The translations under genes and the position numbers were made by a program. A stretch of DNA of 6,212 bases from an uncultured Ruminococcus sp. GTDB taxonomy: Bacteria; Bacillota_A; Clostridia; Oscillospirales; Acutalibacteraceae. The first letter of the stretch is position 1. Each line of letters opens with the position of its first letter. Below are positions 251 to 6,212 of this stretch, piece by piece. The notes under the pieces were generated by a model that saw only the letters and a program-made list of their open reading frames with translations, did no database searches and was not told where the DNA came from. The stretch covers positions 1-6,212 of the forward strand of contig CACYEJ010000103.1 in NCBI GenBank assembly GCA_902773395.1, given 5' to 3'.

Positions 251-2356
251 ATGCTAAACCCAATTAAAGATATAAAAATGCTCAATGATACTCTGAACAT
301 TTTTAAGCAAGGTTATTACGAAAAGAACGGCAAAAAAAATAATTTAAAGCTTTCTCGCAGCGAAATGGAAGACATACAGGTGTATCTTCCGGAAGATGTG
401 AAGCAAAACGGCAGCAGAACTGATTTTAAGCCGCCTTTTGCTCTGGGAGGACGCTGCGGTCATGAATGCGAAAATACAGATTCCTTTACTCTTGCCAGAA
501 AGAGAATGACAGATACGTATTTATTTTCGAAAGATTGCTCTACCGTTCTTGTTTTGAATTTTGCTAATCCGGTGAATCCCGGCGGCGGAGTTCGATTAGG
601 TGCAAAGGCACAGGAGGAGGATTTGTGCAGAAAGAGTTCGCTATTGCTTTCACTGGAGAGTAATGCCGCTAAAGAGTTTTATAGTTATAACAAGAGCCTG
701 CATACAAATATGGGTTCAGACGCGCTTATGATAACTCCTAAGGTGGAGATTATCAGAGATGAAAACGGCGAACTGTTAGATGAATCTGTAGTTGTATCGG
801 TGTTGACTTGTGCAGCACCTATGATTACATACGGCAAAGAGGGCATGAGTGAAGCTGAATATGAGGAAATGTTCTACAATAGAATAATGAATATGCTTAA
901 ATGCGTTGCATATCTTGGATACAAAATTCTCGTGCTGGGTGCATGGGGCTGCGGAGCTTTTGGCAATGACGCTCATTTAGTATCCGATTTGTTTTATAAA
1001 GCTTTTAAGAATATTAACTACAACAATCACGGTGAAAGTGATTTGTTCAAGAAAGTTGATTTTGCCGTACTTGACCGTTCAAAAAGTCAATATAATTTTA
1101 AAGAGTTCTATCGCAATTTTTCATATGAAAATTTTTACCGTGAAGAAAATCAGAAAATAATTGATGAAGTCATGGAGAGGATAAAGGAAACAGAAGTTCA
1201 TTTGGATCAAATCAGAGGTTGTCTGATTGGCGGAGCAGCAGGAGACGCTTTGGGATATCCTGTAGAATTTCTATATGAGAGTCAAATATTCTCCGAATTT
1301 GGCAATAAAGGAATTACGAGCTATGTGCTTGACAGTAAAACCGGAAAGGCTTTGATTTCCGATGATACACAAATGACCTTGTTTACCGGAAATGGTTTGC
1401 TTATTGGAGATACAAGAGGCGCACTGAGGGGAATATCGGGTAATCCGAGTATGTATGTGAAATTGGCATATATGGATTGGCTGCATACCCAGCAAACAAC
1501 ATACAACAATAGCAGAAATGATGAAAATTGCAGATTCCCGAATCGCAAATCATGGCTTATGGACGTACCCGAATTATATGAATGCAGAGCACCGGGCAAT
1601 ACATGTTTATCGGCATTGATGAATTACGAACACAATAATGACAACATATATGATTTTGTGAATAATCCGCAAAACAACAGTAAGGGCTGCGGCGGTATTA
1701 TGAGAATAGCTCCGCTTGCATTAAATTATGGAAGAATGAGTTTGGAAAACTTGGACCGTGAGGCAGCGCATATTGCCGCAATTACTCATGGTCATTCTTT
1801 GGGATATATGCCGGCAGCAGCACTTGTCCACATTATCAACAGAATTGTATTCAGAAGAGATAATATGACCTTGAAAGAAATTGTGTTGGAAGCTAAGGGA
1901 GCAATGACAGGGATTTTTAATGGAGATAAGCATTTGAAAGAGCTTACAGACATTATTGATCTTGCAGTAGAGCTTTCTGAAAACGAAAAGTCCGATCTTG
2001 AAAACATACATCGTTTAGGCGGCGGCTGGGTTGCAGAAGAAACGTTGGCTATTTCCATTTACTGTTCGCTTCGATATGAGAATGACTTTTCCGCAGGTAT
2101 AATTGCATCGGTGAACCATAGCGGTGACAGCGATTCCACAGGAGCAGTTACAGGAAACATTCTTGGAGCTATCCACGGATATGATGCTATCGAAGAAAAA
2201 TGGAAAACAAATCTGGAGCTAAGAGATGTAATCATAGAGTTGGCAGATGATATATGTCATGGCTGCCAGATGAGCGAATACAGTAATTATAACGATCCGG
2301 ATTGGCTTCGTAAATACTGCAATATGCAATGGAAAGATGATGCAAATAATCCTTAA
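251..2356 (+). CDS. Two-domain ADP-ribose hydrolase: PARG-type macrodomain fused to an ADP-ribosylglycohydrolase
   Basis: Predicted cytosolic enzyme that removes ADP-ribose from modified targets. The start is set by AGGAGG at 237-242, 8 nt before ATG. Residues ~1-280 match the microbial PARG-type macrodomain (TIGR02452-like): PGGG at 110-113, then the catalytic QEE at 121-123 (the GGG-x(7)-QEE signature), and GAWGCGAFGN at 230-239 as the phosphate-binding loop. A polar linker spans ~280-318. Residues ~321-685 match the DraG/ARH fold: GD at 331-332, the metal-binding SDDT at 370-373, CGGIMR at 480-485, HGHS at 513-516, and GDSDSTG at 625-631, whose D626 and D628 should hold the second metal site. 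All key residues of both domains look intact, so neither half appears to be a dead remnant. Linkage preference (Arg, Ser, Asp/Glu, DNA or RNA) cannot be read from sequence. It is monocistronic between its own promoter and terminator, and no ADP-ribosyltransferase partner is visible. Confidence 0.93.
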   Translation: MLNPIKDIKMLNDTLNIFKQGYYEKNGKKNNLKLSRSEMEDIQVYLPEDVKQNGSRTDFKPPFALGGRCGHECENTDSFTLARKRMTDTYLFSKDCSTVLVLNFANPVNPGGGVRLGAKAQEEDLCRKSSLLLSLESNAAKEFYSYNKSLHTNMGSDALMITPKVEIIRDENGELLDESVVVSVLTCAAPMITYGKEGMSEAEYEEMFYNRIMNMLKCVAYLGYKILVLGAWGCGAFGNDAHLVSDLFYKAFKNINYNNHGESDLFKKVDFAVLDRSKSQYNFKEFYRNFSYENFYREENQKIIDEVMERIKETEVHLDQIRGCLIGGAAGDALGYPVEFLYESQIFSEFGNKGITSYVLDSKTGKALISDDTQMTLFTGNGLLIGDTRGALRGISGNPSMYVKLAYMDWLHTQQTTYNNSRNDENCRFPNRKSWLMDVPELYECRAPGNTCLSALMNYEHNNDNIYDFVNNPQNNSKGCGGIMRIAPLALNYGRMSLENLDREAAHIAAITHGHSLGYMPAAALVHIINRIVFRRDNMTLKEIVLEAKGAMTGIFNGDKHLKELTDIIDLAVELSENEKSDLENIHRLGGGWVAEETLAISIYCSLRYENDFSAGIIASVNHSGDSDSTGAVTGNILGAIHGYDAIEEKWKTNLELRDVIIELADDICHGCQMSEYSNYNDPDWLRKYCNMQWKDDANNP

Positions 2357-2393
2357 CACAGCAATATTTCAAAAATGTGATACAATAAAAAAT

Positions 2394-2450
2394 GCTCACA
2401 AGACAATGAATGTAACAACTTTACATCACCAATCTTGTGAGCTTATTTTT
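2394..2450. terminator. Bidirectional intrinsic terminator between convergent genes
   Basis: GCTCACAAGA (2394-2403) pairs perfectly with TCTTGTGAGC (2433-2442). Nested inside is a smaller TGTAA (2411-2415) / TTACA (2421-2425) hairpin. T-rich TTATTTTT follows on the plus strand, and on the minus strand the stem is followed by ATTTTTTATT, so it can end transcripts of both the ADP-ribose hydrolase gene and the rpn gene. The rpn stop codon lies only 6 nt from the stem and overlaps the plus-strand T tract. Confidence 0.88.
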
Positions 2451-2718
2451 ATGCTTTCAAACCAGTCTTTGTTTCGAATTCAGAAATTGTCATATTAGCT
2501 CGTTTTGCTGCATCGGTTAAAGATAAAATACCGTCCTTAATAAGACCTACTAGTGTATTAAGCGCTCCAATTTCCATACCTTCGGTTTTTCCCTCTGCTC
2601 TTCCTTCTGCTCTTCCCTCGGCTCTTCCCTCGGCTCTTCCTTCTGCAAAGCCCTCTTCTTTGCTTTCTTTTCTGATTTTATTTAAGGTTTGTTCTTCATT
2701 GTATTCAGTAATACACAT
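2449..2718 (-). CDS. Predicted internally initiated Rpn C-terminal small protein (RpnS-like)
   Basis: Within rpn, and in the same frame, ATG at 2718-2716 (Met225 of the full protein) is preceded by AGAGGTGA (2731-2724) with 5 nt between. This is the same Shine-Dalgarno and spacing as the main rpn start. It would yield 89 residues beginning MCITEYNEEQ, holding the whole AEGR repeat helix and the C-terminal tail but no nuclease core. In E. coli, Rpn proteins are reported as genes-within-genes in which a separately translated C-terminal fragment (RpnS), with a dimerising helix of four-residue repeats, inhibits the full-length toxic nuclease. The layout here matches that model. No separate internal promoter was convincing, so it would be translated from the rpn mRNA. 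Translation in this organism is a prediction. Confidence 0.62.
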   Translation of the reverse strand: MCITEYNEEQTLNKIRKESKEEGFAEGRAEGRAEGRAEGRAEGKTEGMEIGALNTLVGLIKDGILSLTDAAKRANMTISEFETKTGLKA

Positions 2719-3390
2719 ACGCTTCACCTCTGCTTTGTTTAACACTAGAAATGATTTTATTAAAAATTCCTCTGGTGTTTCATCAAGTACTATATCAATT
2801 GCTTTTTCCAAATCCTTAGTTACTTTCTGAGTTATGCGGACTCTGTCTACAAACCATGAGTATTCTTTAAGAGGTTTGCAGGCTTCCAAAAGCTCGCTGT
2901 TGTGTCCGTAGTTAATATTAATCATGGTGACTTTTACTTCAATATCGGGATTAGAGTTAGGAGCAAAAGTATCGCTGAGTTTCAATATTTTTATATCGTC
3001 CTCAGAAGATTTTCCATTGTAGAAACATATACATCTCGGAGTCGGGGCAGTCTGCTGCGAGGTACTGAATTCGTTATAATCTTCACTCTGTTTAATATAC
3101 TTGCTGTAAATCATACCTGCATAGATGAAAAAACGCATAGGCATATTGGGATTATAAGTAGACTGCTGCTCGTATAAATTCATAATATTGTCTACAAGAA
3201 ATGACACATCGTTCTTCATTCTCATATATACAGCGTCTTGTATTGTGGTAATCTCGATGTCATCAGTGTTGGTGTATGATGTTTTGTTGAGGGCATTGTA
3301 TAAGCTTAAAGTCCAGTCTAAATGTTCATGATGACCAAAGATAAATTTAAACAGCCTGTCTTTGTATTCACGGTTCGTTTCGGTCGACAT
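2449..3390 (-). CDS. rpn: Rpn-family PD-(D/E)XK nuclease (recombination-promoting nuclease / putative transposase)
   Basis: A 313-residue protein of the Rpn/PD-(D/E)XK transposase-like family, whose members are DNA endonucleases implicated in recombination and, in E. coli, phage defence. ATG at 3390 is preferred because AGAGGTGA lies 5 nt upstream; the GTG three codons earlier is buried in that Shine-Dalgarno. From this ATG, the family N-terminal motif KDRLFKFIFG is at 10-19. D61 and the E74-x-Q76 pair fit the nuclease core, and STYNPNMPMR (77-86) is typical of clostridial members. Residues 249-268 are four AEGR units plus AEGK, followed by TEGM, probably a long helix. The tail 273-313 is the variable C-terminal segment. 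The gene has its own promoter and diverges from an HTH gene. Direct biochemical activity is not established by sequence, but the core looks complete. Confidence 0.92.
   Translation of the reverse strand: MSTETNREYKDRLFKFIFGHHEHLDWTLSLYNALNKTSYTNTDDIEITTIQDAVYMRMKNDVSFLVDNIMNLYEQQSTYNPNMPMRFFIYAGMIYSKYIKQSEDYNEFSTSQQTAPTPRCICFYNGKSSEDDIKILKLSDTFAPNSNPDIEVKVTMININYGHNSELLEACKPLKEYSWFVDRVRITQKVTKDLEKAIDIVLDETPEEFLIKSFLVLNKAEVKRMCITEYNEEQTLNKIRKESKEEGFAEGRAEGRAEGRAEGRAEGKTEGMEIGALNTLVGLIKDGILSLTDAAKRANMTISEFETKTGLKA
2575..2646 (-). repeat. 12-bp tandem repeat encoding AEGR units in rpn
   Basis: Six consecutive 12-bp units encode AEGR x4, AEGK and TEGM (residues 249-272 of the 313-residue protein). 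The units differ mainly at synonymous positions (GCA/GCC, GAA/GAG), so the array is slightly aged but still able to slip or recombine in 12-bp, frame-preserving steps. In the Rpn family such four-residue repeats sit in the dimerisation helix and vary in number between strains. Confidence 0.9.
2724..2731 (-). promoter_or_regulatory. Internal ribosome binding site in rpn
   Basis: AGAGGTGA on the minus strand gives a seven-base run (GAGGTGA) complementary to the 16S rRNA 3' end, 5 nt before ATG at 2718. The true rpn start has the identical octamer at 3403-3396, 5 nt before ATG at 3390. The match of both sequence and spacing is the main evidence for an intragenic start. Confidence 0.65.
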
Positions 3391-3395
3391 TGAAC

Positions 3396-3403
3396 TCACC
3401 TCT
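3396..3403 (-). promoter_or_regulatory. Ribosome binding site that decides the rpn start
   Basis: AGAGGTGA on the minus strand lies 5 nt before ATG at 3390. An in-frame GTG at 3399-3397 overlaps this motif and has no site of its own, so the longer 316-residue reading is rejected. Confidence 0.8.
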
Positions 3404-3613: not shown

Positions 3614-4087
3614 TTGAGTAATGTTTTATTTCCAACTATTGACTTAGCCGCAACCGGCAAAAATATTGTTCGGCTGAGAAAAGCGTGCGGTCTTACCGTT
3701 CGTGATGTTCAGCAGTTCTTCGGCTTTGAAGAACCTCAAGCTATTTACAAGTGGCAGCAGGGGAAGTCCTTGCCTACTGTTGATAACCTTTTTGCTCTCA
3801 GCTTTCTTTTCGGAGTATCAATGAATGATATTCTTGTCGAAACAAAATTACAGCAAAATCTTAATTCAGTAACAGCAAACGGACAGTCTTTCGACTGTCC
3901 GTCTAATTTTTTTATCACCAACCGCTTCAGACGTAACAGGTTCATAAAGCATCGGACCATTTATAAATTTATTCATTACTCGAAAGCTTTGAATAATAGA
4001 TTAAATAAAAATATGAATAATATAAAAAACACAGTATTATTCCATAATAAAAAAATAAGTTCGTTGTCGAAACGCTTGTGGATTTAG
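3614..4087 (+). CDS. XRE-type helix-turn-helix transcriptional regulator with an abnormal C-terminal tail
   Basis: A predicted DNA-binding regulator. TTG at 3614 is chosen because AGGAGG at 3601-3606 lies 7 nt upstream; the reading frame continues upstream to 3551 but has no ribosome site there. From that TTG, residues ~14-75 form the HTH domain: ATGKNIVRLRKACGLTVRDVQ, an FGFEEPQAIYKWQQGKSLP recognition segment, and VDNLFALSFLFGVSMNDILV. This pattern resembles a group of about 100-residue regulators in Clostridia (recognised from memory). Residues 76-110 are a tail ending ITNRFRRNRF. Residues 111-157 are low-complexity, rich in N, K and I, and look like read-through of non-coding DNA. A terminator-like hairpin underlies residues 89-97. 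The likely ancestral stop is directly after residue 110, where a related sequence at 4266-4264 (minus) reads TAA. It diverges from rpn and may control it and itself; this is inference. Confidence 0.82.
   Translation: MSNVLFPTIDLAATGKNIVRLRKACGLTVRDVQQFFGFEEPQAIYKWQQGKSLPTVDNLFALSFLFGVSMNDILVETKLQQNLNSVTANGQSFDCPSNFFITNRFRRNRFIKHRTIYKFIHYSKALNNRLNKNMNNIKNTVLFHNKKISSLSKRLWI
3879..3913 (+). terminator. Terminator-like hairpin inside the HTH reading frame
   Basis: ACGGACAGTC (3879-3888) pairs perfectly over 10 bp with GACTGTCCGT (3893-3902) across a TTTC loop. CTAA and seven T residues (3907-3913) follow. It has the form of an intrinsic terminator with a small gap before the U tract, yet it lies upstream of the stop codon of the frame containing the HTH domain. 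Confidence 0.62.
3917..3955. repeat. Left arm of an inverted repeat pair
   Basis: The 27 bases at 3917-3943, starting ACCAACCGCTTCAGA, match the reverse complement of 4267-4293 at 25 of 27 positions. With small gaps the match continues through TAAAGCA (3945-3951) and TCGG (3952-3955). In the HTH frame this arm encodes TNRFRRNRF and then runs on. It carries one extra base, A3944, relative to the right arm. Confidence 0.85.
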
Positions 4088-4302: not shown

Positions 4303-4932
4303 TTAGTTTTTCAGGAAATCCTCAAATACTTCATCGAAGTTGCTGTTTACGTCAAATGGAGGATTAAAATCGACTTCGCATTCAATCAGACCTTTGTCTA
4401 TCTCCAAAGAAGCTTTGTCTGCTTGTGCAAAAAGCTGTGTGGAATACTTACGAACTTTGTTTCTGTCGAAGTTAATAGTTGTAACGTTCTCAATATCGCA
4501 GCGATAGGAAATCTGATTTCCCTCGTTGTTGAAGCAGTAGCCGGTGCCGGCATTAGTTTGGGTAAGCTCGCTGCTTTTTATACGGGACATGTTATTGAAC
4601 ACGGCAGACAATTTCTGACGGTGCTTGTTCAGACTTATCTCACTGTCAAGGTCAATAGGCAGACTACGCTTGCTCTCATTTATCTTATATGAAAGCTCTT
4701 CTCTTTTCTGGAGAAGAAAGAGTGCAAACTCAATCATTTCGTTAATATATTTATAATACTCTGTATCCGGCTGTACGGTAACAGTTTCGTTTACAGCGTT
4801 AGGGTTTGCCTTCTTGTAGAGATATGTACGTTTTGTGATAGTTACACAATCCTTGTCGGAAAGAATTGTTAGGCAATTATCGAGCAACGCTTCAATTTTG
4901 TTCTGAAATCTAAAGGCTTCTTTTAATTTCAT
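4303..4932 (-). CDS. Uncharacterised 209-residue cytosolic protein
   Basis: I do not recognise this family. The start is supported by AAAGGAG on the minus strand (4949-4943), with about 9 nt between GGAG and the ATG. There is no signal peptide and no membrane segment. Residues 1-30 and ~60-90 look helical, the second with a charged, coiled-coil-like run (LLQKREELSYKINESKR). Residues ~97-118 form another helix, ~125-153 look extended (TGYCFNNEGNQISYRCDIENV), and ~155-178 are helical again. The C-terminus is acidic (FDEVFEDFLKN). The alpha-rich, soluble character would suit a structural or accessory protein of a mobile element, but that is only an impression. It is downstream of, and co-directional with, the hydrolase gene but has its own promoter. 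No terminator is seen after its stop, which lies 9 bases from the right inverted repeat arm. Confidence 0.8.
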   Translation of the reverse strand: MKLKEAFRFQNKIEALLDNCLTILSDKDCVTITKRTYLYKKANPNAVNETVTVQPDTEYYKYINEMIEFALFLLQKREELSYKINESKRSLPIDLDSEISLNKHRQKLSAVFNNMSRIKSSELTQTNAGTGYCFNNEGNQISYRCDIENVTTINFDRNKVRKYSTQLFAQADKASLEIDKGLIECEVDFNPPFDVNSNFDEVFEDFLKN

Positions 4933-5117: not shown

Positions 5118-6212
5118 TTACAAAATCCAGAATTTATAAAGCTCCCAGAAAAACACGCTAAATATACCGTACACAAGCGACAGCTCCACAAATGAATTGT
5201 ATATCAGTCTTTTTCTGCTGCTTTGAGATGAGAATAATTTTACAGCTCCCATTACGGCAGCAACAATATATACAGCGGCAAGTATAAAGAAAAGGATTAA
5301 TTGTACCTTGTAGCATTTCGAGAGATTACCCGTTGAATAACCGTAGTTCATACATATAAAGATTATTACGGAGGGCAGTACAGCTATAATACTGCTCAAT
5401 GTACTCCATAATCCAAGAGGAATATCGTTTTCAGTTCTCCTGATTTTACTTATAATCAGACGTATCAGTTTAACGATAAGCGATATTATGCCGAATATCA
5501 TGAACGCAATCCATATTCCAACAAGTACATACCGCACTATGACGTATGAAGTATCAAGAACAAGAAAATCTCCGTATACATCGCTTAATATGTCAATACC
5601 GTTTGCCTCTGAACGTGAGCAGGAATATTCAGGAAGTTTTATATAGCTGAAAACATCATATAATTGCAGCGGCTTCAAACCGGACATATTTTCGCCCAGC
5701 ATAACATATCCGCTGTATTTATCTGTGTAGTTATCGAAGGTATAATCTCCGAAAACAAGCTTTGGCATTTCACGGGTGTATTTTGAGGAATGCACCTGAT
5801 TCACCAAAACAACCATTCCTATTTGTTGTTCCGGGTCTACAATTAAATTCGACATACAGCCTGATGTTACACCGGAATGTTCTATAGCTGTTTCGCTTGA
5901 TTCGTTCATCCAGAAGCCGTGGCATAACATTCCATATTCACTGTTTCCGATGTACTTTGTAGGTGTGATTAGCTCTTGGTATGTTTCCTTTTTATCAAAC
6001 AGCTTTGTATCGTCACTCATTAAAGCACGAGCAAACGCTGTCATATCAGACAGAGTAGAGGTACACATTCCGGCAGGATAAGCGTTGATGTAAACCATTC
6101 CCTCGTGAGCTATTGTTACACCGTCCGCATTGTAGCATGAAAGCTCATTACGCTTTTGTGCTACGTCATAGTTATCGCTGAGGTCATTGTAAAGTGCAGC
6201 ATGCTCCATGCC
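5118..6212 (-). CDS. Serine beta-lactamase-like hydrolase with a C-terminal membrane domain (5' end off the window)
   Basis: Partial gene: the frame is open to the right edge, and the residues at the edge (G-MEHAAL) match the PLGM segment that follows the YxN motif in class C beta-lactamase / PBP4-like proteins. Counting from the Met at 6209, AYPAGMCTSTLSDMTAFARAL lies at 43-63, and H-S-G at 111-113 is the KTG-equivalent third active-site motif. It is followed by SNLIVDPEQQIGMVVLVN, the usual final strands. The SxxK nucleophile and YxN motifs would lie outside the window. Residues ~160-220 form a soluble linker. Four hydrophobic segments follow at about 222-249, 267-287, 302-324 and 338-360, placing the enzyme domain outside the membrane. 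Such proteins usually act on D-amino acid peptides, cell-wall fragments or esters; the substrate here is unknown. No ordinary resistance role is implied. Confidence 0.88.
   Translation of the reverse strand, partial: GMEHAALYNDLSDNYDVAQKRNELSCYNADGVTIAHEGMVYINAYPAGMCTSTLSDMTAFARALMSDDTKLFDKKETYQELITPTKYIGNSEYGMLCHGFWMNESSETAIEHSGVTSGCMSNLIVDPEQQIGMVVLVNQVHSSKYTREMPKLVFGDYTFDNYTDKYSGYVMLGENMSGLKPLQLYDVFSYIKLPEYSCSRSEANGIDILSDVYGDFLVLDTSYVIVRYVLVGIWIAFMIFGIISLIVKLIRLIISKIRRTENDIPLGLWSTLSSIIAVLPSVIIFICMNYGYSTGNLSKCYKVQLILFFILAAVYIVAAVMGAVKLFSSQSSRKRLIYNSFVELSLVYGIFSVFFWELYKFWIL

Follow-up and report, generated by a model that had tools for sequence, protein, structure and literature searches.

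The DNA analysed here, a stretch of 6,212 nucleotides referred to throughout as the window, contains on its minus strand an open reading frame (ORF) that runs from an ATG at position 3390 to a stop at 2449 and encodes a protein of 313 amino acids. On the basis of the ORF list, profile comparison and an AF2 model, it was annotated as an rpnL-like full-length gene (2449..3390), whose predicted product comprises, in this order, a PD-(D/E)XK nuclease (approximately residues 1–215), a hinge, a helix of four-residue repeats and an HTH-like tail. The Shine-Dalgarno (SD) string AGAGGTGA of the full-length start lies at 3396..3403 on the minus strand, and the GTG start at 3399 given by the ORF tool falls within it.

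The same string is present on this strand at 2724..2731, where it is spelled by the codons GCA GAG GTG AAG for A-E-V-K (residues 220–223) and was recognised as an internal SD by synonymous-site constraint. The in-frame ATG at 2716..2718 (minus strand), codon 225 of the long ORF, is the putative start of an RpnS-like product, as judged from Met and ATG conservation in relatives. From the ORF and the AF2 model, this candidate rpnS-like gene within the gene (2449..2718, minus strand) would encode 89 residues folded into a long helix followed by two short ones. The window has two copies of the complete string AGAGGTGANNNNNATG, at 3403-3388 (ATG at 3390-3388) and at 2731-2716 (ATG at 2718-2716), each on the minus strand, and the original prediction, which had placed AGAGGTGA-N5-ATG at 3390 and, within the frame, at 2718 (codon 225), was exact in this respect. 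Two such matches were obtained in none of 200 dinucleotide shuffles of the window; by itself, this count proves little about a selected SD, because GCA GAG GTG AAG doubles as the coding sequence of the conserved A-E-V-K peptide. The site inside the long gene is the sole one in the window, which holds no separate rpnS copy. Upstream of the internal start, a promoter-like site at 2783-2754 reached only a 9/12 match, and 11 promoter-like sites were counted on both strands of that region versus 6.2 expected.

Shortly 3′ of the rpn-like stop codon, a hairpin with a U-tract at 2386..2442 (minus strand; −26.7 kcal/mol, z −6.0) is a probable terminator between two convergent genes, and possibly a bidirectional one shared by both, since A/T tracts flank it on both sides. 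It was not among the matches of a simple terminator scan of the window. The convergent gene (251-2356, plus strand) encodes a microbial PARG/TIGR02452 domain fused to an ADP-ribosylglycohydrolase. Elsewhere in the window, an ORF at 3614-4087 (plus strand) encodes an HTH_3-type regulator whose tail is long and basic, and one at 4303-4932 (minus strand) a protein of 209 amino acids for which neither Pfam nor NCBIfam gave a match at E ≤ 0.001. The ORF at 5118-6209 (minus strand) holds the C-terminal portion of a protein of the beta-lactamase family, and the tail behind it has, by eye, the look of a membrane-spanning segment.

Assignment of the long protein

With the Pfam profile PF12784 (PDDEXK_2), the window protein scored 13.7 bits (E 0.053), below the curated cut-off of 27.4 bits, and with PF04754 (Transposase_31, the family of the E. 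coli Rpn proteins) it gave no match at E up to 10. On these scores, the protein was placed in neither PF12784 nor PF04754. Among the 76 members of the alignment of relatives, 52 matched PF12784 at E up to 1 (best 2.3e-4) and one matched PF04754 (E 0.045). PADLOC gave no match at E ≤ 0.001 for four window proteins; only weak RmrA matches were listed, to the HTH protein at 3614-4087.

We employed hhalign with a template made of E. coli RpnA and RpnC and of 20 ORFs that came from the PF12784 searches and had been picked with an ExQ filter. Against this template, the whole protein gave Prob 99.2 and E 3.4e-19, and the nuclease part alone gave Prob 92.8 and E 3.9e-7, with an E of 0.12 for the reversed control; comparison with E. 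coli RpnA alone was weak (P 0.053). Within the template, E85, Q87 and R97 were invariant, RpnA and RpnC included. In RpnA, mutations at D11, D63, E82, Q84 and R94 are described in PMC5350276 as removing activity wholly or partly, and through the hhalign profile alignment these residues correspond in the window protein to D11 (3360-3358), D61 (3210-3208), E74 (3171-3169), Q76 (3165-3163) and R86 (3135-3133), the putative catalytic residues (3133..3360, minus strand). They were kept in 75, 76, 76, 75 and 75 of the 76 aligned proteins, respectively, and the nuclease active site is, as far as these residues indicate, intact. By profile comparison, then, the nuclease is a relative of Rpn, belonging to a separate subfamily of the wider Rpn superfamily (COG5464-like PD-(D/E)XK).

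Most contigs that carry the subfamily have Ruminococcus, Lachnospiraceae or Clostridia in their titles. Two close relatives (L024, L027) come from contigs that were assigned to Thermoguttaceae and Planctomycetales MAGs, a placement due either to horizontal transfer or to mis-binning. Three others (L204, L205, L206) lie on unannotated faecal scaffolds that are filed as 'Bacteriophage sp.' and may be bacterial DNA; the arrangement GAGGT-8-ATG is kept in all three. In addition, each of three single genomes (G002, G003, G007) has several rpn-like genes, both PF12784 members and fragment-type matches among them.

Repeats and fold of the predicted short product

The 12-bp tandem repeats at 2582..2655 (minus strand) encode AEGR-type units. 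For the predicted 89-residue product, the original description as holding the whole repeat helix and the tail was correct, while the description of the repeats as "AEGR" was refined to EEGF-AEGR-AEGR..., the first unit lying at residue 21 (EEGF) or 25 (AEGR) of the fragment. A protein of 96% identity (P0001) lacks exactly three AEGR units, which is the kind of variation in repeat number reported for E. coli RpnS.

In the AF2 model of the 89-residue fragment (mean pLDDT 69), helices span residues 8–61, 67–73 and 78–85. The full-length model (mean pLDDT 67), in which the nuclease core is poorly modelled, has a hinge of low confidence (pLDDT below 50) at residues 229–233, before the long helix and between the two parts of the protein. 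Fold searches were uninformative: among the 50 Foldseek matches listed for the fragment model, all had E ≥ 1.2 and many were HTH regulators, and 7TH0, the three-helix RpnS fold, was not among the matches listed for the RpnS profile (A2).

Selection on the internal start

The search patterns used to collect relatives were degenerate back-translations without A-E-V-K, and therefore these codons were not selected by the search. The best 80 of 97 related loci and the window made up 81 protein-aligned rows, which were thinned to below 85% identity, leaving 63 rows with the window included. A Met was present at the internal-start position in 77 of the 81 rows; of the other four, L019 is a frameshifted gene, and L028, L040 and L069 have a gap there. 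At the equivalent of position 225 in alignment A1, Met was found in 76/76 rows.

In the thinned set, the internal-start codon was ATG in all 63 rows, and the Glu within the internal SD was encoded by GAG in all 63, compared to 36% of the 1804 other Glu codons of the same genes. After thinning to below 60% identity on the part upstream of the Met, this Glu was still GAG in 17/17 rows. The residue preceding it was Ala in 52 rows, with GCG used in 45 of these versus 26% elsewhere, and the Val in the SD was encoded by GTG (52) or GTA (10) and never by GTT or GTC, the remaining row having a Gly. An invariant Glu situated four codons past the Met, taken as a control, was GAA in 48 rows and GAG in 15. 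The mean SD-match run was 7.41, whereas 200 synonymous-codon shuffles averaged 4.46 (sd of the mean 0.16; largest 4.89). A run of at least six was found at 60 of the 63 internal-start ATGs, but among the 654 other ATGs in frame in these genes it was found at only 16. The distance from GAGG to ATG was 8 nt in 62/63 rows.

With regard to the gene as a whole, residues 221, 220 and 222 held ranks 1–3 of synonymous conservation over 217 scored columns (1.0, 0.66 and 0.63; next 0.33), and an SD scan (30 shuffles, 273 columns) peaked at residues 224–227 with z 15.7–19.3, the best column elsewhere reaching 4.0. The strongest codon-level constraint of the whole gene is thus that on the internal SD. No extra selection for weak mRNA structure was seen at the internal start (−4.95 versus −4.93 kcal/mol in synonymous shuffles).

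A scan of 195 loci and the window yielded 115 sites. Of these, 94 (in 91 loci) belong to ORFs with a match to the nuclease profile, 20 (in 18 loci) stand alone and one is cut by a contig end. The nuclease-bearing sites had ATG in 94/94 cases and GAGGT in 91/94, the exceptions being L022 (GAGGG), L086 (AGAGGGTG) and L168 (GGGGGTG). The variant of L168 (G284:C45), which could still pair through G-U, is common to the long gene and both separate copies at that locus.

The original prediction had named, as points on which it could be checked, the loss of the internal SD or Met in homologues and the conservation of the SD beyond what the protein sequence demands. Both elements were kept, as the counts for Met (77/81), GAGGT and ATG indicate, and the codon choice, above all the invariant GAG, goes far beyond that demand. 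At the level of sequence, these results establish the internal start as one selected in evolution for translation, and we regard internal initiation at 2718 as almost certainly real.

Stand-alone rpnS copies and repeat number

Fragment searches gave matches in all nine genomes reached through the loci, and in 14/200 and 28/200 genomes, family centres included, when carried out for two families, many of them in short open frames. All 20 stand-alone fragments of the site scan had ATG at the internal-Met position and 14 had GAGGT; the six others carried GGAGG (L084, twice), GAGGAG (L172), AAGGAAGGT (L079) and GGGGGTG (L168, twice). Seven of the 20 start nine codons or fewer from an in-frame stop, and the Met is therefore the most sensible start of those seven. 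In particular, in L029 and L039 nothing separates the neighbour's stop codon from GCGGAGGTGAAG, with which the downstream copy opens; in L141, the SD string of the copy lies one codon past an in-frame stop; and in both copies of L084 the upstream peptide is gone, with a different SD (GGAGG) in its place. The arrangements in L029, L039 and L084 argue for a translation start and against pausing or a peptide motif. The copies of L056, L001 and L022 retain 15–33 codons upstream of the Met. As far as can be read from their sequences, the separate fragments that begin at this position show that evolution treats the internal Met as a translation start. Some stand-alone fragments, such as L019, L069 and L080, may be broken long genes and not copies. 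In L011, the SD-Met-repeat start occurs twice in one long ORF (2336 and 2399), 21 codons apart, as a short internal duplication.

Ten pairs, out of the 20 separate copies, could be cleanly aligned for the comparison of tails and repeats with the neighbouring long gene. The pooled values for the tails, dN 0.072 and dS 0.326 (735 codons), are consistent with purifying selection, of which some may belong to the long gene. In all ten pairs, the repeat helices of copy and neighbour were of different length, and the difference, between 4 and 28 residues, was always divisible by four. In the loci concerned (L001, L018, L022, L029, L039, L084, L141, L168), the copies sit behind the long gene, like the second RpnS copy downstream in E. 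coli ypaA/rpnES (PMC10327210). For RpnC, the same source describes that one added repeat abolishes neutralisation; by that rule, the mismatched copies would not neutralise their own neighbour. A rather speculative extension, which we consider unlikely, is that in this clade the SD-rpnS unit is a movable antitoxin module, copied behind the toxin and diverging in its repeats, whose copies may neutralise other RpnL alleles and form an array of orthogonal immunities against Rpn toxins that are paralogous or incoming. The mismatch is equally explained by drift in a hypervariable repeat, and such an array is to be taken as a possibility and not as a result.

Other Rpn-like genes

In 47 other Rpn-like ORFs, ATGs located 60–125 residues from the end were preceded by an SD run of at least six in 22/123 cases compared to 9/266 elsewhere, with 21 of the 47 ORFs contributing. 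Similarly, 31 PF12784-type ORFs, which come partly from the same genomes as the former set, had such a site near the end at 14/89 ATGs versus 7/129 elsewhere. Among the best-scoring sites, the SD-ATG lies near the same junction but is spelled by other residues (KEVVDIM, NKEVCDM, TEVQSIM, REATKTM, EEGKVNM). Other Rpn-like subfamilies with an SD-start at the junction were seen in L093, L100, L104, L108, L111, L138-L140, L143-L146, L154 and L034 (1972-). The counts in both sets therefore indicate that the tendency is wider, while near-total conservation is special to the subfamily of the window. PF12784 proteins share with it a homologous nuclease, in which D, ExQ and R align, and a repeat tail, and differ in that their internal SD-ATG is only moderately enriched; the window protein itself lies below the cut-off of that family.

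Discussion

On the sequence data, and by analogy with E. coli, the gene is very likely a gene-within-gene toxin-antitoxin pair of the Rpn family, RpnL/RpnS, the antitoxin role of the fragment included. Ribosomes starting at 3390 would make RpnL, a DNA endonuclease of the PD-(D/E)XK type with a hinge, the repeat helix and a small HTH-like tail, and those starting at the internal SD and ATG at 2718 would make RpnS, that is, helix and tail alone. As in E. coli, RpnS would pair with the same helix in RpnL and keep the nuclease inactive, infection or stress would release the nuclease from RpnS, and the number of four-residue repeats would decide which partners pair. Inhibition, complex formation and phage defence are thus roles that we infer from the E. 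coli system. The claim that this gene shares the gene-within-gene architecture of the E. coli Rpn genes gained support from the codon constraint on SD and ATG, the separate fragments and the homology of the profiles.

Zhong et al. 2023 (PMC10327210) describe how an internal start gives rise to RpnS in E. coli; RpnS forms complexes with RpnL (2:2 for RpnA), and it blocks the growth inhibition, SOS induction and DNA cleavage caused by RpnL. The window subfamily has in common with this system the full-length nuclease, the in-frame internal SD and ATG before a helix of four-residue repeats, the variation in repeat number and, in relatives, the stand-alone downstream RpnS copies. In E. coli K-12 the sequence reads AAGGAG before rpnA M244 and GGAGG before rpnC M241, whereas the internal SD of the window subfamily is longer (GAGGTGA) and nearly invariant. 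The two systems also differ in that the nuclease described here is recognisable by profile comparison only, and its inhibition would follow by analogy. Furthermore, Rpn repeats are reported to begin at RpnS residue 8–20, and those of the window begin just outside this range, at residue 21–25. Finally, the E. coli rpn genes carry an internal promoter according to the same source, unlike the window gene, for which only the 9/12 promoter-like site can be put forward.

The idea is less new than the original prediction held, given that an RpnS from a Clostridioides rpn gene has already been expressed: in PMC10327210, C. difficile rpn expressed in E. coli is described as making RpnS, which was lost when the RBS and the internal start were mutated. 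That gene, too, is a Gram-positive rpn gene; the window gene differs in its membership of a Pfam-subthreshold subfamily.

Among other explanations, internal initiation could be real, with the short protein serving not as an inhibitor but as a required partner subunit, in the way Cas11 does in Cascade, or as an adaptor for oligomers. The codon and stand-alone evidence would fit any selected short product, and an internally translated helper subunit, Cas11d, is cited in PMC10327210. We nevertheless regard this as improbable, because the E. coli equivalent is described there as blocking all three effects of RpnL and the active-site residues of the window protein match those of RpnA.

Much less credible is that the GGAGGT string, instead of marking a start, makes elongation pause at a domain boundary through the anti-SD. 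The string is indeed close to the low-confidence hinge, but pausing requires no ATG at a fixed distance, and yet ATG was present in 94/94 sites and at 8 nt from GAGG in 62/63 rows; moreover, stand-alone copies start there, including those of L084, which have lost the upstream peptide and carry a different SD.

We give slightly less weight still to a conserved DNA or RNA element serving another process, for instance a duplication or recombination junction. The copies of L029 and L039, whose SD string follows the neighbour's stop immediately, and that of L141, one codon after an in-frame stop, would agree with a junction, but other copies (L056, L001, L022) retain the upstream codons, and the 47 other Rpn-like ORFs favour an SD-preceded ATG near the end with different residues. 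As for mere coincidence, with the 8-mer dictated solely by the conserved A-E-V-K peptide, A220, E221 and V222 are conserved as residues, but their synonymous codons were free and went unused (GAG 63/63; GCG 45/52 for Ala; GTG or GTA 62/62 for Val). Unless relatedness by itself accounts for this pattern, the codons speak against coincidence, and GAG was still invariant below 60% identity; we give this reading a negligible chance.

With the RpnL/RpnS pair as the preferred reading, the present analysis adds codon-level evolutionary evidence that the internal start of Rpn genes is selected as a start. As the window member, unrecognised by Pfam cut-offs and by PADLOC, illustrates, genes of this kind are easy to overlook, together with their second products. 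The invariant GAG signature suggests that genes within genes could be sought from sequence only. The mismatched separate rpnS copies, in turn, make the role of repeat number testable.
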